DNA of 64,000 nucleotides from Elusimicrobia bacterium RIFOXYA12_FULL_51_18 (lineage in GTDB: Bacteria > Elusimicrobiota > Elusimicrobia > Elusimicrobiales > UBA9959): contig MGVA01000027.1 of NCBI GenBank assembly GCA_001800245.1, forward strand, positions 34,023 through 98,022, given 5' to 3'. The notes beneath the pieces are model-generated. The model saw only the letters and a program-made list of their open reading frames with translations. It made no database searches and was not told where the DNA came from. Positions 1-14,447 of this stretch are shown here, piece by piece. Made by a program: the position numbers and the translations under genes. Within the stretch, counting starts at the first letter, position 1; each line of letters starts with the position of its first letter.

Positions 1-488
1 CACATATTCCTCAATACCATCGGTTCCTGGCGGAACTGCATGCTGAAGTGGACAGGGTGAATTGGAAGTTTAAGGCCAAGGACTGGAAGGCGATAGTATT
101 TCTGGAAAAGCACCACGATCACAAGGAGATAACCAAGTTCTACAAGATAGCCGATGTGTGCATGGTCACTTCCCTGCACGACGGGATGAACCTGGTGGCC
201 AAGGAATTCGTAGCCGCCAGCGACGACCATCGCGGGGTACTGATACTCAGCCGCTTCGCCGGGGCGTCGCGGGAACTTAAAGACGCGCTGATAGTAAACC
301 CCTATGATATTGAGCAGATGGCCGATGCTATCTACTATTCGCTTACTATGCCGAAAGCGGAGGTGGAGGCACGGATGACCCGCATGCGGCAGGATCTGCA
401 CGAGAACAACATTTATAAATGGGCGGCGAACCTGACCGAAGAGTTGATGAAGCTGAGGATGGACGATTTTAAGCTTACGGGCGTATAA
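1..488 (+). CDS. otsA: Trehalose-6-phosphate synthase, C-terminal part (GT20), cut by window edge
   Basis: This is the last 161 codons of an OtsA-type enzyme, which makes trehalose-6-phosphate from a nucleotide sugar (usually UDP-glucose) and glucose-6-phosphate. The frame is open from base 3, so the gene starts outside the window. The piece carries the GT20 nucleotide-sugar site [12 protein letters not shown] and the [10 protein letters not shown] segment. It is nearly identical to the C-terminus of the full copy at 5399-7654, so the missing part probably also holds a membrane sensor and HAMP domain; that is inference. The stop codon lies one base before otsB, so the two genes are co-transcribed. 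Confidence 0.93.
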
Positions 489-489
489 A

Positions 490-1317
490 ATGAAGCCTTT
501 TTGGAAAAACTCGGACGAGGTCGGCAATCGTATTGCGTCCGCGCCAGGATTGCTGGTGACGTTGGATTTTGACGGCACATTGGCCGCATTGGCTGAGACC
601 CCTGGGCAGGCAATGCTCAAACCGGAGTTTAAGAAGGCCTTGCGTGCATTGGCGGCATTGCCCGGAGTTTCTGTTTTCATCCTCAGCGGGCGTGCCATTG
701 AAAGCGTGCGTAAGTTGGTTGGTTTGCGCAACTTGTACTATGGTGGAAACCATGGTATAGAAATAAAAGGGCCAGGGTTCGTTTGGCGGGACGCGTGCGC
801 GGCTAAAGCACGGAATCTTGTAGCCCGGATCTCCGTAGATATGCAGGAAAGATTTCCTCAGGGCACCGGCATATTGGTTGAGAATAAAGTGTTTTCTGCC
901 AGTGTGCATTATCGCAGCCTCAAAGCGTCATATAGACGTGGTTTCTTCAGCCGGATGAAAGCCTTGATCTCCGCGCAAGGCAAAGAGCTTTATTGGCGCA
1001 ACGGCCATAAAGTGTTCGAGCTTCTGCCAAAAGGTGCAGCCCACAAAGGCAGCGCGGTAGACAGGCTATCAAAACAGCTTGGATGTTCGCTGAATGTCGC
1101 TGTGGGTGATGACCTTACGGATGAAGATATGTTTAATGCTCTTGCGAAAAAGGGAATAACAATACGCGTGGGCCGAAAAACAGGGTCAAGCGCCGGATAT
1201 TTTCTAGCGAGGCAAGATGAAGTTTTACGTTTGCTGCGGTTTATTATTACTGCAAGGCGTTGGGATATAAAATGGAAAAAAGAACTGCGGAGCCTTTCAA
1301 ATTCTGCACGAGGCTGA
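490..1317 (+). CDS. otsB: Trehalose-6-phosphate phosphatase, copy 1
   Basis: A HAD-superfamily phosphatase of 275 aa that removes phosphate from trehalose-6-phosphate, the second step of the OtsA/OtsB route. The nucleophile motif LDFDGTLA is near residue 25, the second motif is FILSGR, the lysine motif lies in LPKGAAHKG and the Mg-binding motif is VGDDLTDEDMF. The ATG follows the otsA stop directly. The C-terminus is about 16 residues longer than in copy 2 (7656-8435), because the frame runs 46 bp into the next gene. In copy 2 a kinase gene lies at this point, so the extra tail is probably a scar of its loss. Confidence 0.95.
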   Translation: MKPFWKNSDEVGNRIASAPGLLVTLDFDGTLAALAETPGQAMLKPEFKKALRALAALPGVSVFILSGRAIESVRKLVGLRNLYYGGNHGIEIKGPGFVWRDACAAKARNLVARISVDMQERFPQGTGILVENKVFSASVHYRSLKASYRRGFFSRMKALISAQGKELYWRNGHKVFELLPKGAAHKGSAVDRLSKQLGCSLNVAVGDDLTDEDMFNALAKKGITIRVGRKTGSSAGYFLARQDEVLRLLRFIITARRWDIKWKKELRSLSNSARG

Positions 1318-1946
1318 CGCTTACCGAAGTTACGGGGCGTAAAGCCTTTAACATAGCGGAACTGCTGGAGGGCATAAAGGCGGCTGACGACGCGACCATC
1401 TACCACCACACCCATCGATTTATAAAGCAATCTCACCACCTGGTGCCGGAAGGCGCTAATGATTTCGCCTACTGGGTAACCCGCACGGTGCAGGCGGACC
1501 GTCTGGGAGAGCAGTTGACTTCCATCGATATCGTGCAGTTTAATTCCCTGGCGGACCTCAAGGCCGCTTTTGTAAAAATGCTGGAGCGGCACATCGCGGA
1601 AAACCCTGAGCAGATACGTACTGTGGCTCCGGGACGGGAATTTCATTTTATGCGCGCTATACGGTTTTCGCTTCCCACGGAGTGCGCCGCCAGTGATTAT
1701 GCGGGTTTTATTCAATGCCTGCGCAATGTCAGTGTTTCAAGCCTTTACCTGCACGTCTTTGAGGCGCGTCTGCGCCCACCCTATGGTGTGGACGACTTCT
1801 CGCACTGGTTTAAAACTAACTTTAACGACGAGATTATAGGTAAAGAGATATCCCGTCTTGATCCCTATTCCTACACGCTTGAAAGCTTAAGGCAAAGGAT
1901 AATCCGAATAGTTGAGCATCGCCTCGCGGAGGTGTCCCATGCCTAA
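1272..1946 (+). CDS. DUF5752 family protein, copy 1
   Basis: A 224-aa protein matching from memory the DUF5752 family, of unknown function, found beside trehalose/glycosyltransferase genes. It is mostly helical and soluble with no signal peptide, and has conserved-looking stretches such as YHHTHRFIKQSHHLVPEGAN near residues 40-60 and the histidine/aromatic-rich FSHWFKTNFND. The ATG at 1272 is chosen because it gives exactly the length of the copy at 9858-10532. It overlaps otsB by 46 bp and treT by 8 bp, implying translational coupling and a role in the trehalose pathway, perhaps regulatory or scaffolding (inference). Confidence 0.82.
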   Translation: MEKRTAEPFKFCTRLTLTEVTGRKAFNIAELLEGIKAADDATIYHHTHRFIKQSHHLVPEGANDFAYWVTRTVQADRLGEQLTSIDIVQFNSLADLKAAFVKMLERHIAENPEQIRTVAPGREFHFMRAIRFSLPTECAASDYAGFIQCLRNVSVSSLYLHVFEARLRPPYGVDDFSHWFKTNFNDEIIGKEISRLDPYSYTLESLRQRIIRIVEHRLAEVSHA

Positions 1947-3159
1947 AATAAACGAATATAGTGCTTCTGCCGGTCTCAGTGCCATAGAAGAATTGAAAGC
2001 AATTGCCTTCAGGCTCAAAGGTAAAACGATCCTTAATGTGAATTCCACTGCGGTAGGTGGTGGTGTGGCCGAGATATTAAGCCGTATGCTGCCGATGATG
2101 ACGGAATTGGGTATAAAACCGCGCTGGGAACTTATCAAGGGCGGGGAAGATTTCTATGCGGTAACCAAGAAGTTCCATAATGCCCTGCATGGCACCTACC
2201 AGAAACTTACCGACGCTGATTTTCAGCTTTACCGTGATACGCTCAAGGCCAATATGGAGTCTATAGATCTGGACGCCGATATAGCCCTGATACACGACCC
2301 GCAACCTGCCGGGCTTATAGACAAAAAACCGGCGAGAGCCAAATGGGTGTGGCGCTGCCATATAGACCTATCCAACCGGCAGGTGGATGTCTGGAATTTC
2401 CTGCACGGCTATGTTTCACGTTATGATGCGGCGGTGATTTCCGCTCCGTCCTTCTCACAGGAGCTGCCAATAAAACAGTTCCAGGTTCCGCCTTCCATCG
2501 ACCCACTAGCCGATAAGAACAAAGAACTGACGGATGCTGAGGTTTCAGATATAATGCGGCGGCTTGAAATCCCATTGGATAAGCCGCTGATAACGCAGGT
2601 CTCGCGTTTTGATCGGCTGAAGGATCCGCTGGGCGTGATAGAAGCATTCAAAAAAATACAGCCCTACGTTACGGCGCGGTTGCTATTAGTAGGCGGTAGT
2701 GCCGACGATGACCCTGAAGGCTCTCAGGTGCTGGCAGAAGTCCGAGCGGCAGCGGAAGGTAACCCTGATATAATAGTACTCTGCCTGCCTCCGACCAGCA
2801 ATATCGAAATAAACGCCATACAACGTGCCTCCGCGATAATAATACAGAAGTCGCTTAAGGAAGGGTTCGGGTTAACGGTTTCCGAAGCCTTATGGAAAGG
2901 GAAACCTGTAATAGCCGGAGCTGTTGGGGGGATTCCATTACAGATAACGCACAAATACTCGGGGATACTTACCCGCACCATAGAAGGCACGGCCTATTGG
3001 ATGAAACGCTTGCTGCACGAACCAGCCTATGCCAAAAAACTGGGGGAAAATGGCCGCGAGCATGTGCGCGAGAACTTCCTGCTAACCCGACATCTGCGCG
3101 ACTACTTACTGTTGGCACTTTACTTGGAAAGCGGCAGACAGGACTTCATCCATCTGTGA
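1939..3159 (+). CDS. treT: Trehalose synthase TreT-like glycosyltransferase (GT4), copy 1
   Basis: A 406-aa GT4 enzyme resembling TreT, which joins an NDP-glucose and glucose into trehalose in one step. Seen are the N-terminal loop NSTAVGGGVAEIL, the acceptor-side motif WRCHIDLSNR, the domain-linking SRFDRLKDPLG and the donor-binding E-x7-E region KEGFGLTVSEALWKGKPV. The ATG overlaps the end of DUF5752 by 8 bp, with GGAGGTG as ribosome binding site. The protein has the same length as the copy at 10525-11745 and is about 95% identical by eye. Direction of reaction (synthesis or degradation) cannot be read from sequence. Confidence 0.88.
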   Translation: MPKINEYSASAGLSAIEELKAIAFRLKGKTILNVNSTAVGGGVAEILSRMLPMMTELGIKPRWELIKGGEDFYAVTKKFHNALHGTYQKLTDADFQLYRDTLKANMESIDLDADIALIHDPQPAGLIDKKPARAKWVWRCHIDLSNRQVDVWNFLHGYVSRYDAAVISAPSFSQELPIKQFQVPPSIDPLADKNKELTDAEVSDIMRRLEIPLDKPLITQVSRFDRLKDPLGVIEAFKKIQPYVTARLLLVGGSADDDPEGSQVLAEVRAAAEGNPDIIVLCLPPTSNIEINAIQRASAIIIQKSLKEGFGLTVSEALWKGKPVIAGAVGGIPLQITHKYSGILTRTIEGTAYWMKRLLHEPAYAKKLGENGREHVRENFLLTRHLRDYLLLALYLESGRQDFIHL

Positions 3160-3499: not shown

Positions 3500-3556
3500 G
3501 TTGTTATTTGGGGGGTATTGTTTTTAGAACGATAGGGGGCAAATAACAACTTTTTC
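3500..3556 (+). terminator. Long-loop inverted repeat with T-run, possible terminator
   Basis: The arms GTTGTTATTTG (3500-3510) and CAAATAACAAC (3540-3550) are perfect inverted repeats and are followed by TTTTT. The 29-nt loop is long for a classical terminator. It sits directly after the last ORF of copy 1. Confidence 0.5.
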
Positions 3557-3564
3557 CAAAAAAA

Positions 3565-3597
3565 CACCACCGGGAGTGCCGGTGGTTGTTATTTTTA
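3565..3597 (+). terminator. Rho-independent terminator of trehalose operon copy 1
   Basis: The stem CCACCGG (3567-3573) and CCGGTGG (3579-3585) with loop GAGTG is followed by TTGTTATTTTT. This compact GC stem plus T-rich tail is the most likely end of the copy 1 transcript. Confidence 0.8.
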
Positions 3598-4009
3598 AAG
3601 TGGCGCGGTCAACGGGGGCCAAAAACTAACTTTTTAGATTCGTCCTTCATAGGGAAAACCTGCTTTATGCCTGCCTTTGAACTGCCTTTAGACCTCTTCA
3701 GAATCATCGGCTATGAGGGCGAAAGGTTCCTCTCCATGGTCCCTGAATGCCTCTAATCCCGCTTTTTAACGCAAAAGTTCGAATCCAGTTGACTTAGAGG
3801 TCAACTGGATTCGAACTCTGCCTGTTTTGCCTTAAAAATGACTATCGAATCCGCCCCGGCCTTGAACACGCCAAAGCCATCCAGGACACGGTGGAACGTG
3901 CTCTTTCGGCCAGCCCAGAAGACCTTGAAAAAATAGAAGCGGCCCTTAAAGCATTGTGAAAATATTCAATTTTGTTTGGACAGCGGTCGCAGTATTCTGG
4001 TAAACTATT
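3598..4009 (+). other. Gene-poor stretch with decayed coding fragments
   Basis: No intact gene is visible. Two short protein-like fragments remain: a 31-codon ORF at 3667-3762 (MPAFELPLDLFRIIGYEG...) and an unstarted frame ending at 3959 (...RPGLEHAKAIQDTVERALS...ALKAL) with coding-like composition. They could be remains of a toxin/antitoxin or nuclease-type gene, but too little is left to name. Just before the riboswitch candidate, TTGGAC (3976-3981) and an extended TGGTAAACT (-10 TAAACT at 4001-4006), 19 bp apart, make a weak promoter candidate. Confidence 0.4.
3776..3817. repeat. Perfect 18-bp inverted repeat
   Basis: The arms agttcgaatccagttgac (3776-3793) and gtcaactggattcgaact (3800-3817) are perfectly complementary around the 6-nt loop ttagag. 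No T-run follows on either strand, so it is not an ordinary terminator. The arm contains TTCGAAT, a tRNA T-loop-like word, but no T-stem pairs around it. It could be the footprint of a mobile element or a recombination site. Confidence 0.75.
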
Positions 4010-4104
4010 GAAAAGGGTCCGAAGCGTGTAGTAATTGCTTCGGAGGTTTGGGATGGTCGGGCCGCCATCTCCGGTTGAACTACCGGGTGGCGGATTTTTA
4101 TTTG
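4010..4104 (+). promoter_or_regulatory. Candidate Na+-I riboswitch (DUF1646 RNA motif) upstream of a DUF1646 transporter
   Basis: A structured leader lies 58 nt before the first gene of operon copy 2. It has a perfect 8-bp hairpin TCCGAAGC (4018-4025)/GCTTCGGA (4037-4044), then the purine-rich GGTTTGGGATGG, then stem GATGG (4052-4056)/CCATC (4065-4069). That stem shares CCATC bases with a terminator stem just downstream (4062-4093), so the two are mutually exclusive, as in a ligand-controlled terminator switch. Known: the DUF1646 RNA motif is the Na+-I riboswitch class and typically precedes DUF1646 genes; the second gene here is DUF1646. That this RNA belongs to that class is inferred from structure and gene context; I did not align it to the consensus. 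Confidence 0.68.
4062..4103 (+). terminator. Expression-platform terminator of the riboswitch candidate
   Basis: The stem CCGCCA (4062-4067)/TGGCGG (4088-4093) with inner CCGG (4071-4074)/CCGG (4083-4086) is followed by ATTTTTATTT. It lies upstream of the operon rather than after a gene, and it competes with the upstream GATGG/CCATC stem. Ligand binding that stabilises the upstream stem would therefore switch the operon on. Confidence 0.8.
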
Positions 4105-4161
4105 TTTCTTACGTGTCCGCTTGCCGGTAATTGGGCTTATTGCCCTTAAAACGGAGGCGAC

Positions 4162-4320
4162 ATGACACAACAAACTGATAATACTCCCGGTACAAATAAA
4201 ACTCAAGTTATAGAATATTCCTACTGGCCTTTTTTCCGCGCATGGATTCTCTCAATATCCATCGTTGCGGCTTTAGTTCTAATCCTTAGATATGTTTTTC
4301 ATATAAACCTTCTTTTCTAA
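4162..4320 (+). CDS. 52-aa single-pass membrane peptide, first gene of operon copy 2
   Basis: A short ORF with ribosome binding site ACGGAGGCGAC just before the ATG. The N-terminal 18 residues are polar (MTQQTDNTPGTNKTQVIE). After YSYWPFFRAW comes a hydrophobic helix of about 22 residues (ILSISIVAALVLILRYVFHINLLF). It lies between the riboswitch candidate and the DUF1646 gene, 11 bp before it. The likely role is a small subunit or regulator of the transporter, by analogy with other small transporter-associated peptides; this is inference. I do not recognise a family. Confidence 0.72.
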   Translation: MTQQTDNTPGTNKTQVIEYSYWPFFRAWILSISIVAALVLILRYVFHINLLF

Positions 4321-4331
4321 AGGAAGTCATT

Positions 4332-5378
4332 ATGTCTTATTGGGCTGTTGTAAGCCTGGCGCTGATAATGGCGCTGGTTCTACTGTTGCCGTTTTCTATA
4401 AAGCGTGTGGAGGAAGAGTTGGAAGTCTTCCTGCTTATCATGGGCTGCGCCGCAATGACCGTCTCGGGGTTGTGGAACTGGCATATAGTAAAGGAGTCAC
4501 TGGTTGAGCCGATAAAGATATCCGCTGCCGTGCTGGTTGCAGGTTTCCTTTTTAGGGCAGGACGAAGCCGTGTTGAGGGCATGATAGAACGGCTAGAGCG
4601 ACGTATAGGTCTCAAGCATTCTCTCTTCGCGCTTATAGTCCTCCTGGGCTTTTTGTCCAGCGTGCTTACAGCGATAATAGCGGCGCTCATACTGTGCGAG
4701 ATTATCTACCATCTGGGCCTGGACCGGCCTTCCCGCATACGTGTCGCAATTTACACCTGCTACGCCATAGGGCTTGGAGCCGCGTTAACACCAATAGGCG
4801 AGCCATTGTCCACCATAGTGACGGCCAGATTGCAGGGGCCGCCGCACAACGCCGGGTTCTTTTGGCTGGCCAATTTACTGTTCCTATGGGTTACTCCCGC
4901 CATTATCGCCGTGGCCGCGTTAGCTGCCTACTGGCGTCCATTGGGCCGGGAGGCCGTGGCGACCACAGTTAACGACACGCCTCCCGACACAAATAAGGTA
5001 TTGTTTATGCGGGCGGGGAAAGTCTATGTGTTCGTGGCAGCGCTGGTATACCTAGGTCAAGGGCTAAGTCCTGTCGCTGGAAAACTGATACCGGCGTTAA
5101 AAGGCTGGCAGCTTTACTGGCTGGGCCTTAGCTCTGCTGCGCTCGACAACGCTACGCTGGCCGCCGCGGGGATCGTGCCTTCCATGAGCAGGGCACAGAT
5201 ACTTTCGTTCGGTTTAAGCCTGCTGATTTCGGGGGGGATCCTTATACCGGGGAATATTCCCAACATTATTAGCGCCGCCAATCTGGATATCAAAAGCCGG
5301 GAGTGGGCCAGAGCGGCTATTCCCGCCGGTGTCGCGCTGCTAACCATTTACTTCCTGGCCCTCACGGCTATTTACTAA
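4332..5378 (+). CDS. DUF1646 family putative cation transporter
   Basis: A 348-aa polytopic inner-membrane protein with about 10 hydrophobic segments. From memory it matches the DUF1646 family: the duplicated signatures GAALTPIGEPLSTI (about residue 150) and DNATLAAAGIVPSMS ... GGILIPGNIPNIISA (about 265-315) resemble NhaD/ArsB-type ion transporter half-sites with G-P-G and N-P-like turns. The family is thought to be a Na+ (cation) exporter because its genes sit under Na+ riboswitches. The ATG follows AAAGGAAG. It precedes the HAMP-OtsA gene by 20 bp, tying ion export to trehalose synthesis. Confidence 0.85.
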   Translation: MSYWAVVSLALIMALVLLLPFSIKRVEEELEVFLLIMGCAAMTVSGLWNWHIVKESLVEPIKISAAVLVAGFLFRAGRSRVEGMIERLERRIGLKHSLFALIVLLGFLSSVLTAIIAALILCEIIYHLGLDRPSRIRVAIYTCYAIGLGAALTPIGEPLSTIVTARLQGPPHNAGFFWLANLLFLWVTPAIIAVAALAAYWRPLGREAVATTVNDTPPDTNKVLFMRAGKVYVFVAALVYLGQGLSPVAGKLIPALKGWQLYWLGLSSAALDNATLAAAGIVPSMSRAQILSFGLSLLISGGILIPGNIPNIISAANLDIKSREWARAAIPAGVALLTIYFLALTAIY

Positions 5379-5398
5379 GGTGCGAAGAAGGAGTTTTT

Positions 5399-7654
5399 AT
5401 GCGTATAACACTTCGGCTCATTGTTTCACTTATCGTAGTAGTGGTATTCGTGGCGATTGTCTCTGCATGGTTTAATGTCCGCCAGGAAAAGATAAAACTT
5501 TACGAAGAAGTTACATCCCGCTCTGCTCTGTTGGCGGACAGCTTTCAGGAAAGTGTCCGGAACAATCTGACGGCGAAAAACTACAGCGGAGTGCAGAGGC
5601 TGGCTGACAAATTTCAGTCCCAGAAACAACTTGAAGGCGTTGCAATCTATGACCCCGCCGGAACCCGTATCATTAGTTCATCCGCGCTGACCCCGCTGCT
5701 GGCGGTGCATAAGGAAACCGTAGAGGCGTCGCTGAAAGACGGACAGGATAAAGCGGGCACCTACGCCATGGCGAACAAAAAGATGTTTCTTTATCCGCTT
5801 TCTGTGACTCTCGACGGTGGAGAGATTGTGCGCATTGTCCTTTTCACCAATGTGTCATATATAGACTACGACCTTTTCAAGATCTGGAAGCGCACGCTTT
5901 TAAGGCTGCTGGCCCAGATGATCCTTATTTCAATCGTCACGCTGGTGGTGGTGAGGTGGACGTTCGTGGACCCCATCACCCAGATGGCAGAGTGGATGAA
6001 GAATCTCCGGATAGGCGACGCACACGGCCATGCCCCACCGATCAAGGGGGATATTTTTGCGCCTTTAGCAAAAGAGGCCACTACATTGGCAACGAACTTG
6101 CAGGCGGCCAGACGCTCCGCGCAGAACGAGGCCCGGCTACGCCAGGAGGGGGAATCCCTGTGGACACCGGAAAGGCTCAAAGAGCACATAAAAATTAAAA
6201 TGGAAGGGCGACCGCTTTTTGTTGTTTCAAACCGTGAACCCTACATGCACATTAAAGAGGGTAAGGACATCCGCACCATAGTCCCGGCAGGCGGTCTGGT
6301 TACCGCCCTAGACCCGATTATGAGAGCCGCAGGCGGCACCTGGGTCGCCCACGGCAGCGGTGAGGCAGACTTCGAGGTAACGGACGCGAAGAACCGCATA
6401 CAAGTTCCGCCGGATGAACCGGCCTATAGTTTGCGCCGTGTGCCACTCAGCAAGGAGCAGGAGGACGGCTACTATTACGGTTTCTCCAACGAAGGCATCT
6501 GGCCGCTTTGTCATATAGCGCATGTTCGGCCCATCTTCCGGAAAGAAGATTGGCAGTATTATTACGACGTGAACAAAAAGTTTGCGGAAACTGTGTTGGA
6601 AGAAATAGCAGACGTGAAGGAGCCCTGTGTGCTGATACAGGACTATCACTTCACCCTCCTGCCCGGCATGATAAAAGCGGTAAGACCAGACACGCGTGTG
6701 GCAGTTTTCTGGCATATCCCCTGGCCGAATCCGGAGACTTTCGGCATCTGCCCCTGGCAGAAGGAACTGGTAATGGGCCTCCTGGGCGCGGATCTTATAG
6801 GCTTCCAGACGCAGTTCTACTGCAATAACTTTCTGGACACCGTAGACCGGACCATAGAATCACGTATAGACTGGGAGCATTTTTCAGCGCAGAAAGAAGG
6901 CCATGTTACGATGGTGAAACCTTTCCCCATCAGCGTGGACTTTCAGCGCCCAGATAAAGAGGCCAAGGCTCTGGCAGAAAAGCCTGAATTAAAGTCGGTA
7001 CTAAAGGAAATGGGACTTAAAGCGGAATATGTGGGAGTCGGTGTGGATCGTATAGACTATACCAAGGGCATGCTCGAAAGGGTGAAAGCTGTAGAACGGT
7101 TCCTCGAAAAATACCCGGAGTACGTCAACAAATTCACCTTCATTCAGTTAGGCGCGCCTAGCCGCACGCACATTCCCCAATACCATAGGTTCCTGGCTGA
7201 ACTGCATGCTGAGGTGGATAGAGTGAATTGGAAGTTTAAAGCCAAGGACTGGAAAGCGATAGTATTCCTGGAAAAGCACCACGACCACAAGGAGATAACC
7301 AAGTTCTATAAGATCGCTGACACTTGCTTGGTGACCTCTCTGCACGACGGCATGAACCTGGTGGCCAAGGAATTTGTGGCTGCCAGAGATGATAATTCAG
7401 GGGTGCTGATACTGAGCCGCTTCGCCGGGGCCTCGCGCGAGCTTAAGGATGCGCTGATAGTCAATCCCTACGACATAGAGCAGATGGCCGACGCCATCTA
7501 CTATTCGCTTACCATGCCCAAAGTGGAGATAGAGGAACGGATGACCCGCATGCGTCATGACCTGCACGAGAACAATATTTACAAGTGGGCGGCGAACCTG
7601 ACCGACGAGCTGATGAAGCTGAGGATGGACGATTTTAAACTTACGAGCGTATAA
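5399..7654 (+). CDS. otsA: Membrane sensor-HAMP-trehalose-6-phosphate synthase fusion
   Basis: A 751-aa protein. Residues 7-25 form TM1, 26-165 an extracytoplasmic sensor-like region, 166-187 TM2, and about 188-240 a HAMP-like linker. From about 272 to the end lies a complete GT20 OtsA domain. Catalytic landmarks match E. coli OtsA: VVSNRE with PAGGLVTAL, the aspartate/histidine motif [21 protein letters not shown], the phosphate-binding [11 protein letters not shown] (Arg and Lys present) and [12 protein letters not shown]. The enzyme should make trehalose-6-phosphate at the inner membrane, with activity possibly gated by an external signal through HAMP (inference). The ATG at 5399 follows GAAGGAG; an in-frame upstream start would overlap DUF1646 heavily. 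Classical OtsA is about 470 aa with no membrane part. Confidence 0.9.
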
Positions 7655-7655
7655 A

Positions 7656-8435
7656 ATGAAGCCTTTTTGGAAAAACTCAGACGAGATTTCAAATCGCCTT
7701 GCGTCCGCACCTGGACTGTTGGTGACTTTGGATTTTGATGGTACATTGGCCGCGCTGGCGGAGACTCCCGGTCAAGCCCGGTTGCAACCGGAGTTCAAGG
7801 CTGCATTGAGGGCTTTGGCGGCATTGTATGGGGTTTCTGTGTTTATACTTAGCGGGCGGGCCTTGGAAAGTGTGCGCAAGTTGGTTGGTTTGCGGAACCT
7901 GTACTATGGTGGGAACCACGGTATAGAAATAAAGGGTCCCGGTTTCGCCTGGCGAGACGCCGGGGCGGCTAAAGCGCGTGACCAGGTGGCCGGGATAGCC
8001 GCTGATATGCAGGAGAGATTCCCTCCGGGGACCGGCGTATTTGTAGAGAATAAAGTGTTTTCTGCCAGTGTGCATTACCGTAACCTTAAGACGGCGTACA
8101 GGCGTGGCTTCTTCTGCCGGATGAAAGCTCTGATGTCCGTGCATAGTAGAGCACTTTACTGGCGCGGCGGTCATAAAGTTTACGAGTTGCTCCCCAAAGG
8201 CGCCGCCCACAAAGGCAACGCGGTTGAGCGGTTGGCCAGACGATTGGGACGCCCGCTGAGTGTGGCCGTGGGCGATGACCTTACCGACGAAGATATGTTC
8301 AAGGCGCTTGCCGGGCGCGGGATAACAATAAGTGTGGGCCGCAAGGCCGGGTCAAAAGCCGGGTATTTTCTGCCGGGTCAGGCGGAAGTCCTGCGTCTGC
8401 TGTGCTTCATTACTAATCTTAGGAGAAATAAATGA
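7656..8435 (+). CDS. otsB: Trehalose-6-phosphate phosphatase, copy 2
   Basis: A HAD phosphatase of 259 aa, close to the usual OtsB length. D26/D28 lie in TLDFDGTLA, FILSGR is near residue 65, the lysine motif is LPKGAAHKGNAV and the Mg-binding motif is VGDDLTDEDMF near 205. It hydrolyses trehalose-6-phosphate to trehalose in the cytoplasm. Its ATG is one base after the otsA stop and its end overlaps the kinase start by 4 bp (ATGA). It is about 85% identical to copy 1, and the natural C-terminus (LRRNK) shows where copy 1 was altered. Confidence 0.96.
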   Translation: MKPFWKNSDEISNRLASAPGLLVTLDFDGTLAALAETPGQARLQPEFKAALRALAALYGVSVFILSGRALESVRKLVGLRNLYYGGNHGIEIKGPGFAWRDAGAAKARDQVAGIAADMQERFPPGTGVFVENKVFSASVHYRNLKTAYRRGFFCRMKALMSVHSRALYWRGGHKVYELLPKGAAHKGNAVERLARRLGRPLSVAVGDDLTDEDMFKALAGRGITISVGRKAGSKAGYFLPGQAEVLRLLCFITNLRRNK

Positions 8436-9874
8436 CACTAAGATCTAAGTTTGTGCTTTACACTGCCGGCATCGCCGCAGTGTTCACTGTCTTTATGGTC
8501 TATGACAGGGTGCGTACGGCAAGAAGCGAGATGCTTGACCGCGCCGGCAGCAGAGCGGATTATATTATTTCTTTCGTAACCGATATAGCCGCCGACCAAC
8601 TGGCGGCGGGTTCCACTGCGGACCTTGGCAAGATCCTAAAAGGCTTTTCGCATTTTGACCGGATATCCTACCTGCGGGTTTCGGATTCACGGGGCAAGAT
8701 ACTATACCGGCTGGCACGCCCCGGCGTTAAAATAGACGGTCGACTTCCCGACGCCGATATTTTCACCTCCGCCGACGATATTTATGATGTTTCGTGCGAC
8801 ATAACGCGGGACGACCGGCGTCTGGGCACAATACAGCTTGGGATGTCGCTGGAAGGAATTAAGGAATCAACCCAAACCCTCAAGTGGCGCGGAATAGCGG
8901 TGGGAATTATCTTTTTCACCCTGCTAACTGCCGTCATCTGGCTGCTCACAGTAAAGCTGGGCCGCCATCTTGACGCGCTGCTGGCATTGGCCGGAAGCAT
9001 GAATTCTGAAAAACTGCCACAGGAACCGCAATTGGATCCCCGCACCGATATCGGAAAGATAGCTTCCGCGCTGCGTGAAACGCACTCGCGCCTTAAGGCC
9101 GAAGAAGTGTGCCGCAAGGAAGCCGAAACGCAAAAAGAAGACTTTTTTGCGATGACCGTCCACGACCTGAAACAGCCTTTGACATCACTGAAGGCGGCGA
9201 TAGATCTGTTATTTTCGGAAGAAGATGTAAAAAGCTTCAGTAAAGACCAGGTACGAAGTCTTTCAATAATTGCCGGCACCTCGCTCCGTATGCTTAATTC
9301 CATGGTCGTCGACGTACTGAATACGGCTAAAATGAAGAGCCGGGATTACACGCCGGAGAAGAACAGGTTATCTCTTAATGAATTCATGCGGGAATGCGCT
9401 GAAGAAAACGCTGTTTCAGTAAAAGCCGCCAATAAGAAGTGGCACTTTTCCCTTCCCAAAGACATTGATAGCACCTGGATGTTCGGCGATCACGACATGC
9501 TGAAGCGGGTAATCGGGAACCTTGTGCTCAACGCTATACAGTACACGCCGGAAGGCGGAGCCATAAAACTGGGCGTAAGGCTTTCGTCAGCGGATAAAGC
9601 CGCCATTTATGTCAGTGACGAAGGCGAAGGCATCCCGGATAGTTTTCGGGAAGAGATCTTTAAGAAATACCAGGGCCTGGGGAAAAGCTCCAAAAACATC
9701 GGCCTTGGCCTGGCTTTTTGCAAAATGGTGGCGGATACGCATTCCGCAAGAATAGACGTCCAATCGGAAATGGGAAAGGGCACAGAAGTAAGTTTTGTAA
9801 TACCCGTTTCACGAGCAGCCGACTCCAGCAAAGAAACCGGCGGCGTGGAGGAATCATATGACGGAAAAAAGTAA
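8432..9874 (+). CDS. Membrane sensor histidine kinase
   Basis: A 480-aa kinase. TM1 is at about residues 8-24, the extracytoplasmic sensor region at 25-152, TM2 at 153-174 and a HAMP-like linker at 175-230. The HisKA phosphoacceptor H244 lies in TVHDLKQPL, the N box is NLVLNAIQYTPEGG (about 370), the G1 box DEGEGIPD and the G2 box GLGLAF. Topology mirrors the HAMP-OtsA protein two genes upstream, so both may sense the same kind of signal. No response regulator gene is in the window, so its partner is unknown. It overlaps otsB by 4 bp and DUF5752 by 17 bp. Copy 1 of the module lacks this gene. Confidence 0.94.
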   Translation: MTLRSKFVLYTAGIAAVFTVFMVYDRVRTARSEMLDRAGSRADYIISFVTDIAADQLAAGSTADLGKILKGFSHFDRISYLRVSDSRGKILYRLARPGVKIDGRLPDADIFTSADDIYDVSCDITRDDRRLGTIQLGMSLEGIKESTQTLKWRGIAVGIIFFTLLTAVIWLLTVKLGRHLDALLALAGSMNSEKLPQEPQLDPRTDIGKIASALRETHSRLKAEEVCRKEAETQKEDFFAMTVHDLKQPLTSLKAAIDLLFSEEDVKSFSKDQVRSLSIIAGTSLRMLNSMVVDVLNTAKMKSRDYTPEKNRLSLNEFMRECAEENAVSVKAANKKWHFSLPKDIDSTWMFGDHDMLKRVIGNLVLNAIQYTPEGGAIKLGVRLSSADKAAIYVSDEGEGIPDSFREEIFKKYQGLGKSSKNIGLGLAFCKMVADTHSARIDVQSEMGKGTEVSFVIPVSRAADSSKETGGVEESYDGKK

Positions 9875-10532
9875 CGATCCGTTCAGGTTCTGCACGCGGC
9901 TCTCGCTTACCGAAGTTACCGGGCGCAAGGCCTCGAACATAACGGAACTGCTTGAGGGAATAAAGGCGGCGGATGATGCGATTATCTACCACCATACCCA
10001 CCGTTTCATAAAACAATCCCACCACTTGGTGCCGGAAGGCGCCAACGACTTCGCTTATTGGGTTGCCAATACGGTACAAGCGGACCGCTTAGGCGAGGAA
10101 CTGACCTCCATAGACATCGTGCAGTATCATTCTCTGGCGGATATCCGGGACGCGTTTGTGAAAATGCTGGAGCGGCACATAGTGGAAAACCCCGGCCCGA
10201 TGCGCACCGTGGCTCCGTGCCGCGAATTTCATTTTATGCGCGCTATAAGGTTTTCACTCCCCACGGAGTGCGCCGCCATAGATTATGCGAGTTTTATTGA
10301 GTGCCTGCGCAATGTCAGCGTTTCAAGCCTTTACTTGCACGTCTTTGAGGCACGTCTGCGCCCGCCCTACGGGGTGGACGACTTCTCGCACTGGTTTAAA
10401 ACCAACTTTAACGACGAGATAGTAGGGAAGGAAATCTCCCGCCTTGACCCGTATTCATACACGCTCGAAAGCCTGAGGCAAAGAATAATCCGCATAATAG
10501 AGCATCGCCTGCCGGAGGTGTCCCGTGGCTAA
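9858..10532 (+). CDS. DUF5752 family protein, copy 2
   Basis: A 224-aa protein with the same length and about 90% identity to 1272-1946. The start ATG at 9858 has GGAGG about 7 nt upstream. The conserved core includes YHHTHRFIKQSHH, EFHFMRAIRFSLPTECA and a C-terminal helical region SRLDPYSYTLESLRQRIIRI. It overlaps the kinase end by 17 bp and the GTG start of treT by 8 bp. Its retention next to treT in both copies, including the one that lost the kinase, ties its function to TreT rather than to the kinase (inference). Molecular function is unknown. Confidence 0.82.
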   Translation: MTEKSNDPFRFCTRLSLTEVTGRKASNITELLEGIKAADDAIIYHHTHRFIKQSHHLVPEGANDFAYWVANTVQADRLGEELTSIDIVQYHSLADIRDAFVKMLERHIVENPGPMRTVAPCREFHFMRAIRFSLPTECAAIDYASFIECLRNVSVSSLYLHVFEARLRPPYGVDDFSHWFKTNFNDEIVGKEISRLDPYSYTLESLRQRIIRIIEHRLPEVSRG

Positions 10533-11745
10533 AATAGACGAATACGCGCCTGCGGCCGGCCGCAGCGCCATAGAAGAACTGAAGATAATAGCCTCAAAAC
10601 TTAAAGGTAAAACCATCCTTAACGTCAATTCCACTGCGGTAGGCGGCGGCGTGGCAGAGATACTCAGCCGTATGCTGCCGATGATGACAGAACTGGGAAT
10701 AAAGCCGCGATGGGAACTTATTAAGGGAGGGGAGGATTTTTACGCGGTAACGAAGAAATTCCACAATGCGTTGCACGGTACGCGTCAGGAACTGACCGCC
10801 GCCGATTTTCAGCTTTACCGGGATACGCTCAAGGCCAACATGGAGTCCATAAACCTGGACGCTGACATAGCCCTGATACACGACCCGCAGCCCGCCGGGC
10901 TTATAGACAAAAAACCGTCAGGAGCCAAGTGGATATGGCGCTGTCACATAGACCTCTCCAACCGTCAGTCTGACGTATGGGATTTCCTGCACGGCTATAT
11001 CTCGCGTTACGATGCAGCGGTAATCTCCGCGCCGTCTTTCTCACAGGAATTGCCGATAAAGCAGTTCCAGGTTCCGCCGTCCATAGACCCGCTGGCCGAT
11101 AAGAACAAAGAGTTAACGGACACAGAGGTTTCAGATATAATGAGGCGGCTTGAGATTCCCATGGATAAGCCGTTGATAAGCCAGGTGTCTCGCTTCGATC
11201 GGCTGAAGGACCCGCTGGGTGTTATAGAGGCCTTCAAGAAGATACAGCCTTACGTCACGGCGCGGTTGCTGCTGGTTGGCGGCAGTGCCGACGATGATCC
11301 CGAAGGCTCCCAGGTTTTGGCAGAAGTCCGCGCGGCAGCGGAAGGCAACCCGGACATAATTGTGCTTTGTCTTCCACCGACCAGTAATATCGAAATAAAC
11401 GCTATACAACGGGCTTCCACAATAATATTGCAGAAGTCGCTTAAGGAAGGATTCGGGTTAACGGTTTCTGAAGCCTTATGGAAAGGTAAACCGGTAATAG
11501 CCGGGGCTGTAGGTGGAATACCGCTTCAAATAACACACAAATATTCGGGAATACTAACCCGCACCATCGAAGGCACTGCCTATTGGATGAAGCGCCTGCT
11601 GCACGAGCCCGCCTACGCCAAGAAACTGGGCGAAAACGGGCGTGAGCACGTCCGGGAAAATTTCCTGCTGACGCGCCATTTACGCGATTATTTGCTTCTC
11701 GCCCTGTATTTGGAAAGCGGCAGGCAGGACTTTATACACCTTTAG
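10525..11745 (+). CDS. treT: Trehalose synthase TreT-like glycosyltransferase (GT4), copy 2
   Basis: A 406-aa GT4 glycosyltransferase read from a GTG start preceded by CGGAGGTG, overlapping DUF5752 by 8 bp. It has NSTAVGGGVAEIL (about residues 34-46), WRCHIDLSNR (about 134), SQVSRFDRLKDPLG (about 224) and KEGFGLTVSEALWKGKPV (about 303-320). TreT makes trehalose directly from NDP-glucose plus glucose and can run in reverse in some organisms. Having it beside OtsA/OtsB gives the cell two independent trehalose routes in one transcript. Divergence from copy 1 is mainly at third codon positions, so both copies are under selection. Confidence 0.88.
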   Translation: MAKIDEYAPAAGRSAIEELKIIASKLKGKTILNVNSTAVGGGVAEILSRMLPMMTELGIKPRWELIKGGEDFYAVTKKFHNALHGTRQELTAADFQLYRDTLKANMESINLDADIALIHDPQPAGLIDKKPSGAKWIWRCHIDLSNRQSDVWDFLHGYISRYDAAVISAPSFSQELPIKQFQVPPSIDPLADKNKELTDTEVSDIMRRLEIPMDKPLISQVSRFDRLKDPLGVIEAFKKIQPYVTARLLLVGGSADDDPEGSQVLAEVRAAAEGNPDIIVLCLPPTSNIEINAIQRASTIILQKSLKEGFGLTVSEALWKGKPVIAGAVGGIPLQITHKYSGILTRTIEGTAYWMKRLLHEPAYAKKLGENGREHVRENFLLTRHLRDYLLLALYLESGRQDFIHL

Positions 11746-11777: not shown

Positions 11778-13679
11778 ATGGCGGGTTTGGATATAGCTAT
11801 CATACTGGCTTTTATAGTTTATTCTCTCTCTTCCGGACTGCGCAACAGAGAAATGGCGTCAAAGAATCTTGAGGAATATTTCCTGGCTGGAAGATCTCTG
11901 CCTGGGTGGAAGGCCGGTCTTAGTATGGCCGCCACTCAGTTCGCGGCGGATACCCCGCTTCTTGTCACAGGCATCATAGCTGTATCCGGCATTTTTGCCC
12001 TTTGGCAGATGTGGATATATGCCCTCTCATTCCTTGTAATGGGGTTTGTGTTGTCTTCGCATTGGCGGCGTGCCGGAGTGATTACGGATGCGGAACTTAC
12101 GGAGTTGCGGTATGGGGGTGGAAAAGCCTTGGCATTGCGCGGTTTCAAGGCTGTTTATTTCGGCACCATTTTTAATTGTGTGGTGCTTGCCTGGGTATTC
12201 TTCGCCGCTTCAAGGATAGCGGAACCGTTTTTGCCCTGGAACGAATGGCTGCCAACGTGGATATTCCAGCCTTTCATGAGTCTAGTGCAGGCAGCCGGGT
12301 TAAAGCTGACCGGAGCTTCTCTTGACGCCGCCAATGTGTGGGTGTTGTCCGCCAATAATTTCATTTCAGTATTATCAATCCTGACTGTGACCGCTTTCTA
12401 TTCCGCAACCGGTGGTCTGCGCAGCGTGGTGGACACCGATGTGGTGCAAATCTTTATCATGTTTGGCGCAACTCTTGTTTTTTCTGTGATAGTATTTTTG
12501 AAGGCCGGGGGGATAGCGGGAATCCATGAGAAACTTCAACTGATATATGCGTCCGGCAGTCTCGGCGCAATAAAACCTTCAGAAATATTGGCATTTACTC
12601 CGGACCGTGCCCATAACGCCAGCTTCGCGTTGCTGGCGCTGTTCGCGCTTCAATGGATCATACAGTTAAATTCAGACGGAACCGGCTACCTTGCGCAACG
12701 CTCAATGGCCTGCAAGGACGAAAAGCACGCCAAAACAGCCGCGCTAGTTTTCACTGGCACGCAGGTACTATTGCGCAGTCTTCTGTGGCTGCCGCTGGGG
12801 CTTGGCCTACTGGTGCTGTTCCCTCCGGTTGCAGGCCTGACAGGAGAACTTCTGCAAGCCGACAGGGAGGGGGCATATATCAGAGGAATGGCTGAATTGC
12901 TTCCAGTTGGAATCAAGGGACTGATGATAACCGGAATGCTGGCCGCATTAGCGTCCACCGTCGATACGCACATCAATTGGGGAGCTTCATACTGGGCGAA
13001 CGATATTTACAAGCGGATTATATGCCAGGCATGGCTCAAACGCGAACCCAGCGGCCGCTCTCTTGTTTGGGTGGCACGTGGTTCCAACCTGATGCTTATT
13101 TGTATAGCTCTGGTAATAATGACAAAATTGTCTTCAATTAATCAGGCATGGCAGGCAAGTCTATTGCTAGGCGCAGGAATGGGGCCGATGCTAATCATGC
13201 GCTGGCTCTGGTGGCGGGTAAGTGCCTGGGCGGAAATAGCGGCGATTGTGGTTTCATCCGCCGCCGCGCTGCCCCTTCTACTATGGGTTGATAACCCGGC
13301 CCTGCGGTTACTTATCATGGCCGCGCTTTCAGTCGCCGCCTCGTTATCGGCTATTGTGCTTTTCGGACCAGAGGATAAAGAACAGTTAGCTGTTTTTTAT
13401 AAAAAGGTGCGCCCCAAGGGATTTTGGAAACCAGTCGCATTAGAATGCGGAGATCCGGAATATGACGGTCCACGCAAGTTATTGATTTCCCTGGCAGCTG
13501 TGCTGGCCGCCGGGGTTTCCGTTTTCTGCCTCTTGATAGGCATCGGCTCCGCGATTACCGGCAGCCCGTCTCCCGCAATCTGCCCTTGGCCAGCTGTCTG
13601 GATTACCGGGAATATTATATTGGGGCTTTTCCTGTGCCCTATATGGTTCAGGCTGGGATTTCGCGGGAACACCGCCTGA
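11778..13679 (+). CDS. Sodium:solute symporter (SSS family)
   Basis: A 633-aa polytopic protein with about 13-15 membrane helices and the SSS family look: N-terminal EEYFLAGRSLPGWKAGLSMAATQFAADTP, where the unwound TM1 and the substrate/Na+ sites would be, and ATGGLRSVVDTDVVQ in the middle. It imports an unidentified small solute with Na+; in this operon a compatible solute or sugar is the reasonable guess. The ATG is 33 bp after treT, with GAGAGG upstream, and no terminator lies between, so it is probably co-transcribed. The C-terminal 100 residues carry two extra helices. Confidence 0.88.
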   Translation: MAGLDIAIILAFIVYSLSSGLRNREMASKNLEEYFLAGRSLPGWKAGLSMAATQFAADTPLLVTGIIAVSGIFALWQMWIYALSFLVMGFVLSSHWRRAGVITDAELTELRYGGGKALALRGFKAVYFGTIFNCVVLAWVFFAASRIAEPFLPWNEWLPTWIFQPFMSLVQAAGLKLTGASLDAANVWVLSANNFISVLSILTVTAFYSATGGLRSVVDTDVVQIFIMFGATLVFSVIVFLKAGGIAGIHEKLQLIYASGSLGAIKPSEILAFTPDRAHNASFALLALFALQWIIQLNSDGTGYLAQRSMACKDEKHAKTAALVFTGTQVLLRSLLWLPLGLGLLVLFPPVAGLTGELLQADREGAYIRGMAELLPVGIKGLMITGMLAALASTVDTHINWGASYWANDIYKRIICQAWLKREPSGRSLVWVARGSNLMLICIALVIMTKLSSINQAWQASLLLGAGMGPMLIMRWLWWRVSAWAEIAAIVVSSAAALPLLLWVDNPALRLLIMAALSVAASLSAIVLFGPEDKEQLAVFYKKVRPKGFWKPVALECGDPEYDGPRKLLISLAAVLAAGVSVFCLLIGIGSAITGSPSPAICPWPAVWITGNIILGLFLCPIWFRLGFRGNTA

Positions 13680-13802: not shown

Positions 13803-14447
13803 ATGAAGACTTCTAAGAACTCGAGGTTTGAGAAAGCTGCGGATTGGTACGAATTGCTGGTTTGTGCCGATAAGCCTTCCATCGACCTTGAACGGCTTAG
13901 TGGCGGCGGCAAACTTTCCACACACCCGGAGCTGTCGGCTCTGATAGGCTGCCAGCAGGACCCGGTTTGGCACCCCGAGGGGGATGCTTGGGCTCATACA
14001 TTGCTTTGTCTTGATTCTTTTGCCGCCGAGCGTGTAGGCGATGAACGTGAGGATTATATAGTGGGCTTGGCGGTGCTCTGTCACGACATGGGCAAGCCCG
14101 CCACAACGCGTCCGCATGAAGGGCGCATTACCTCAAGAGGGCACGAGGGGGCAGGGGAAGTGCCTGCGCGGGCGTTTTTAAGCCGCACCGGAGTTCTTCC
14201 GGAGATCATGGAGAGCGTTATCCCTCTTGTGCTATGCCATATGCGGCCTGAGCAGCTTTATAACGCCAAGTCCAGTGATTCAGCCGTAAGTCGCCTGGCA
14301 AGGGCCGTCGGCGGCAGGCTGGACCGGCTGGTGAGAGTTTGCAGGGCGGATAAAGGGGGGAGGGGCCTGTCGGGTCAGCCTGTTTTTCCTGCCGGAGAAT
14401 GGATTCTTGAAAAGCATCGTCAGTTGAACACCGACCTCAAAAAGTAG
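13803..14447 (+). CDS. Stand-alone HD-domain phosphohydrolase
   Basis: A 214-aa protein with an HD metal-binding fold: H65 in WAHTLL, H94-D95 in LCHDMGKP, and further histidines at RGHEGAG. The layout HPELSALIGCQQDP..HPEGD.W.H resembles the HD region of multifunctional CCA-adding/poly(A) polymerase enzymes, but the nucleotidyltransferase half is absent. Probable activity is a 2',3'-cyclic phosphodiesterase or nucleotidase; the substrate is unknown. It lies 123 bp after the symporter with AT-rich, promoter-like DNA before it, so it may be an independent gene. Confidence 0.75.
   Translation: MKTSKNSRFEKAADWYELLVCADKPSIDLERLSGGGKLSTHPELSALIGCQQDPVWHPEGDAWAHTLLCLDSFAAERVGDEREDYIVGLAVLCHDMGKPATTRPHEGRITSRGHEGAGEVPARAFLSRTGVLPEIMESVIPLVLCHMRPEQLYNAKSSDSAVSRLARAVGGRLDRLVRVCRADKGGRGLSGQPVFPAGEWILEKHRQLNTDLKK

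Follow-up and report, generated by a model that had tools for sequence, protein, structure and literature searches.

In a 64,000-nucleotide stretch of DNA from an Elusimicrobia bacterium (hereafter the window), a structured leader RNA stands before genes for a cation transporter and for trehalose synthesis, which raises the question of what class of riboswitch the leader represents and which ion it senses. The nhaA-I RNAs were named Li+-I riboswitches and shown to sense Li+, and a terminator-bearing nhaA-I variant from D. propionicus was validated as Na+-activated and named Na+-II; whether the trehalose-linked members sense Li+ or Na+ was left undecided in the same study (White et al., 2022; PMC9646797). 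The analysis reported here indicates that the leader is probably a terminating ON riboswitch of the nhaA-I family, with Na+ as its most likely ligand, acting as a salt-stress switch for efflux and trehalose.

The single Rfam match of the 64-kb window at curated thresholds is the nhaA-I RNA (RF03057) at 4015-4070 on the forward (+) strand, which also carries the promoter, terminator and genes given below. The match spans the full model (1-55) and scores 50.1 bits (cut-off 37; E=6.5e-7, with the whole window as search space), and GGGU, the AGG linker and the P2 loop GGUCGGGCCGCC of the model are all present in the alignment of the leader. Across 131 nhaA-I copies, model positions 41, 44-48 and 50 are invariant. 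The 8-bp hairpin, the purine strand and the GATGG/CCATC stem shared with a terminator that the original prediction named are present, and its expectation of a cation-type riboswitch whose terminator shares aptamer bases before a DUF1646 and trehalose operon was borne out. However, its class, the Na+-I or DUF1646 RNA (RF03071), was wrong. The check set beforehand, a scan of the leader with the Na+-I covariance model, gave no match in 3500-4400 even at E<=10, and the family was found neither in this genome nor in 40 relatives, with a control genome detected; the Na+-I assignment was thus rejected at family level. Na+ may still be the ligand despite the nhaA-I class, because some nhaA-I variants sense Na+ (White et al., 2022; PMC9646797). 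As judged from its sequence, the leader adds a new member to the nhaA-I family, one that uses a terminator as its platform and stands before a salt-stress operon.

The aptamer (4015..4070), supported by the RF03057 score and by covariation, is composed of P1, in which 4018-4025 (TCCGAAGC) pairs with 4037-4044 (GCTTCGGA), a GGAGG..GGG purine strand that follows P1, and P2, in which 4052-4057 (GATGGT) pairs with 4064-4069 (GCCATC) around the conserved loop CGGGCC (4058-4063). Folding yields an intrinsic terminator at 4062..4099 (-20.6 kcal/mol), with a 5' arm formed by 4062-4068 and 4071-4075, a loop at 4076-4081, a 3' arm at 4082-4093 and a T-run (U-run in the RNA) at 4095-4099. Most of the segment 4062-4068 belongs to the P2 3' strand, and since this segment serves both structures the aptamer P2 and the terminator are mutually exclusive. 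The P2 3' strand lies inside the terminator in all 34 nhaA-I copies of the window's bacterial family, where median energies are about -24 kcal/mol for the terminator and about -7 for the isolated P2.

In 31 aligned relatives the P1 and P2 pairs are kept in 96.2% of cells, and two-sided compensatory cells in these stems number 27 versus 5.4 in shuffles; the leader structure is far above chance. The terminator itself shows only weak covariation, since the aptamer dictates the sequence of its lower half and the alignment is wrong in its upper half. The automatic terminator test was permissive, with 20-25% of shuffled leaders passing in the Elusimicrobiota and Desulfobacterota sets, and for this reason reliance was placed on the P2 strand-sharing count and on reading of the alignments. 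A probable sigma-70 promoter, TGGACA-N18-TAAACT (3977..4006), was recognised by its consensus match, and TGGACA-N18-TATAAT occurs at about the same distance from the aptamer in the upstream paralogue. If such a sigma-70-like promoter is used, transcription would start directly 5' of the aptamer.

Downstream of the leader, a 52-aa ORF for a small membrane protein (4162..4320), for which no Pfam match was obtained, is conserved in several relatives, where it stands ahead of DUF1646 or otsA. It is followed by the DUF1646 transporter (4332..5378; PF07854, E=3.4e-98), a weakly NhaD/CitMHS-like protein (TIGR00775 NhaD, E=9.7e-5) and a probable Na+/H+ antiporter. Trehalose synthesis by two routes comes next, with the trehalose-6-phosphate synthase OtsA (GT20; 5396..7654; PF00982, E=1.7e-116), the trehalose-6-phosphate phosphatase OtsB (7656..8435; PF02358, with TIGR00685 above cut-off), a membrane histidine kinase (8432..9874; PF00512, PF02518), a DUF5752 protein (9858..10532; PF19027, E=3.3e-57) of the kind that adjoins treT in such operons, and a TreT-type trehalose glycosyltransferring synthase (10525..11745; PF21269; NF041139, E=7e-106). 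A sodium:solute symporter (SSF; 11778..13679; PF00474) follows, and its gene stands directly after riboswitch-DUF1646 in another locus (L030) and one gene later in a further one (L024). DUF1646, OtsA, OtsB, TreT and the symporter had thus been placed correctly by the original prediction. The nine reading frames are predicted to form a single unit, with the membership of the HD-domain protein (13803..14447; PF01966) uncertain given the 124-bp gap before its gene. Separately, the N-terminal transmembrane, sensor-like region of OtsA (window 5396-6200) resembles the input part of WalK over residues 4-247, a feature that might point to direct membrane sensing by this synthase.

The window opens inside a paralogous operon, of which the 3' part (the end of otsA, otsB, DUF5752 and treT) occupies 1..3159. 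A second nhaA-I RNA with a terminator, at contig C27:30987-31041, lies before the window start and 7 kb upstream, and it heads this DUF1646-otsA-otsB-DUF5752-treT operon, the proteins of which are 80-94% identical to the window copy. As such, two riboswitch-trehalose operons stand in tandem. Between both operons, window 3775-3818 holds a long near-perfect inverted repeat (AGTTCGAATCCAGTTGAC/GTCAACTGGATTCGAACT), and a similar but degenerate repeat precedes the upstream riboswitch.

RF03057 is carried by 67 of the 341 genomes of Elusimicrobiota that were scanned, and this phylum scan together with family-level matches gave 81 copies, the window copy and its twin included. For 58 of these, otsA lies <=3 kb downstream, where about 0.05 would be expected by chance; within 6 kb downstream, DUF1646 was found for 15 and TreT for 28, and nhaA for none of the 81. 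The breadth of the unit, described as unusual by the original prediction, is not unique, as nhaA-I RNAs commonly head otsA/otsB/DUF5752/treT operons in the phylum. Other targets there include CPA2 Na+/H+ exchangers, Na+/Ca2+ exchangers, CitMHS/NhaD-like transporters, MscS channels, SPFH proteins and sugar ABC transporters. Several Elusimicrobiota from other families have 7-17 bases between the end of the aptamer and the otsA start codon, a proximity that suggests translational control in these lineages. In one genome of a sister genus (L246 of G016, ~1180-1470), the otsA leader holds a decayed-looking nhaA-I aptamer (GGTCTGGCC) and inserted DNA in the terminator loop, and no aptamer was seen in another genome (L253 of G005); in sequence, these cases look like a natural loss of the switch.

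The association extends to other phyla. In Desulfobacterota, the targets include NhaD-like transporters, glucosyl-3-phosphoglycerate synthase, mannosyl-3-phosphoglycerate phosphatase-like proteins and pentapeptide-repeat proteins. The glucosyl- and mannosyl-3-phosphoglycerate genes, which follow nhaA-I RNAs at L363 (348-2545), L337 (451-1656) and L356 as glucosylglycerate/mannosylglycerate-type synthesis genes, are another compatible-solute route, and one genome of this phylum (G539) has the otsA-otsB-DUF5752-treT operon itself under an nhaA-I RNA. Tandem and triple aptamers were also observed in Desulfobacterota (L358, L341, L348, L351, L354 and L357), most with their own terminators; these arrays stand before small uncharacterised proteins or pentapeptide-repeat proteins. 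Two nhaA-I RNAs (L154, 937-989 and 3969-4020) occur in a MAG labelled Akkermansia muciniphila, and MAGs of Omnitrophica, Nitrospirae, Verrucomicrobia and Hydrogenedentota gave further matches; all of these lie beyond the Proteobacteria that the 2022 paper lists (PMC9646797). In a small sample of eight gamma- and betaproteobacterial copies, nhaA follows six, and none of the eight, most of them before nhaA, passed the terminator test.

As for the ligand, the foot of P1 is C4019-G4043 in the window, and the G-C pair of the Li+-I consensus is absent. A pyrimidine-purine pair closes the base of P1 in 81/81 Elusimicrobiota and 39/40 Desulfobacterota copies, whereas all 6 nhaA copies have G-C or G-U there. 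The gene nhaA lies downstream of six of eight G-type copies versus none of 123 others (Fisher p=4e-9, kinship ignored, with the pair type largely confounded with phylum), and one betaproteobacterial pyrimidine-purine copy is followed by an Mrp Na+/H+ antiporter instead of nhaA. The window RNA has U at 4057 (model position 42), the putative equivalent of D. propionicus nucleotide 54 as deduced from construct length and column counts, with position 53 as the other U/C column; Li+-I RNAs also have U here and the validated Na+-II RNA has C, which counts against the Na+ reading. Of the 131 copies, 122 carry U and 9 carry C in this column. Either base can be found ahead of the same genes, namely a branched-chain-type ABC operon (U in L349; C in L346, L362 and L365), NhaD-like genes (U in L340 and L352; C in L353 and L359) and trehalose operons (C in L366 and L316; U in most others), and therefore U at this position is by itself no mark of a Li+ sensor in this group. 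Na+ is favoured because the targets are salt-stress genes without nhaA, a gene context that is indirect evidence, because the P1-foot pair is inverted, because of the interchange at position 42, and also because the expression platform is a terminator. Searches in Desulfobacterota did not identify the Na+-II sequence of D. propionicus, scanning named genomes with a pattern gave, among the matches listed, chiefly chance occurrences in genomes rich in GC, and an RF03071 example for comparing the P1 foot was not found, with no DUF1646 relative on plasmids.

Three other readings have to be weighed against this. The leader could be a true Li+-I riboswitch, through which Li+ would induce DUF1646 efflux and trehalose would be raised within a lithium response. 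The family with the best score is nhaA-I, in which the validated members sense Li+, the loop and U4057 fit the Li+-I consensus, and the possibility was raised for trehalose-6-phosphate synthase by White et al. (PMC9646797); however, the absence of nhaA from all 81 Elusimicrobiota contexts, targets that are osmolyte and Na+ genes, the inverted P1-foot pair and a terminator platform as in Na+-II make it improbable. A better but still unlikely candidate is a broad sensor of Na+, Li+ and NH4+, similar to the D. propionicus Na+-II RNA with the C54U mutation, in which the response was widened to these three ions in vitro and that to Na+ was not abolished (PMC9646797). The window RNA has U at the putative position 54, but its natural sequence background differs and one nucleotide cannot give specificity; in the cell the switch would normally still be triggered by Na+, so that this reading overlaps the main explanation. 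The Na+-I riboswitch first proposed has a similar overall architecture and the expected DUF1646 gene next to it, yet the scans with RF03071, blank at every level apart from the control genome, leave it with hardly any probability.

Under the preferred explanation, a Na+-responsive nhaA-I switch, transcription would begin just before GGGU. When the ion is scarce, the P2 3' strand (CCGCCAU) would pair downstream into the terminator and the transcript would end at the U-run. When it is high, the ion would bind in a pocket formed by the P1 base, the linker and the P2 loop, so that P2 is retained and the terminator blocked. As the P2 3' strand doubles as the terminator 5' arm, ligand binding would prevent termination, and an ON direction is expected by analogy with White et al. 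(2022). DUF1646, OtsA, OtsB and TreT would then be made, and probably the Na+:solute symporter too. The trigger would be a rise of Na+ inside the cell, and the outcome Na+ expelled and trehalose built.

A wider proposal, held with only slightly more belief than doubt, is that nhaA-I RNAs with a pyrimidine-purine P1 foot are a Na+-sensing group of their own. This group would be the master salt switch of Elusimicrobiota, and in part also of Desulfobacterota and other phyla, for compatible-solute synthesis (OtsAB/TreT trehalose, glucosyl/mannosylglycerate) and Na+ efflux, with terminator or start-codon-proximal platforms, and U or C at nucleotide 54 would not be what separates Na+ from Li+ sensors within it. 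The Li+ or Na+ question of White et al. (2022) becomes testable with the window locus, the twin upstream of it and another 79 copies from the phylum, and these point to Na+. If this is true, osmolyte synthesis in much of Elusimicrobiota is under the direct control of an RNA that senses a simple ion, and a large Na+-sensing branch is contained in what is currently filed as Li+-I.

Compared with known systems, the leader has in common with Na+-I (DUF1646 motif, RF03071; PMC9337991) a similar two-stem layout and some target genes (DUF1646, nhaD), but the RF03071 model does not match it. With Li+-I / nhaA-I (RF03057; PMC9646797) it shares the GGGU start, P1, the AGG linker, P2 with the loop CGGGCC and a full-length model match above cut-off. 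It differs in having C-G in place of the consensus G-C at the P1 foot, in its linkage to DUF1646 and trehalose synthesis instead of nhaA, in its terminator platform and in its Elusimicrobia host. With Na+-II of D. propionicus (PMC9646797) it shares an intrinsic terminator platform, non-nhaA genes and, by analogy, a presumed antitermination mechanism; Na+-II has C at the specificity position where the window RNA has U at the putative equivalent, and has been reported only from Deltaproteobacteria. The leader is filed neither as Na+-II nor as Li+-I, because for either subclass one feature is missing or ambiguous here and the ligand assignment is predicted. In operation, the element most likely works like a Na+-II switch.
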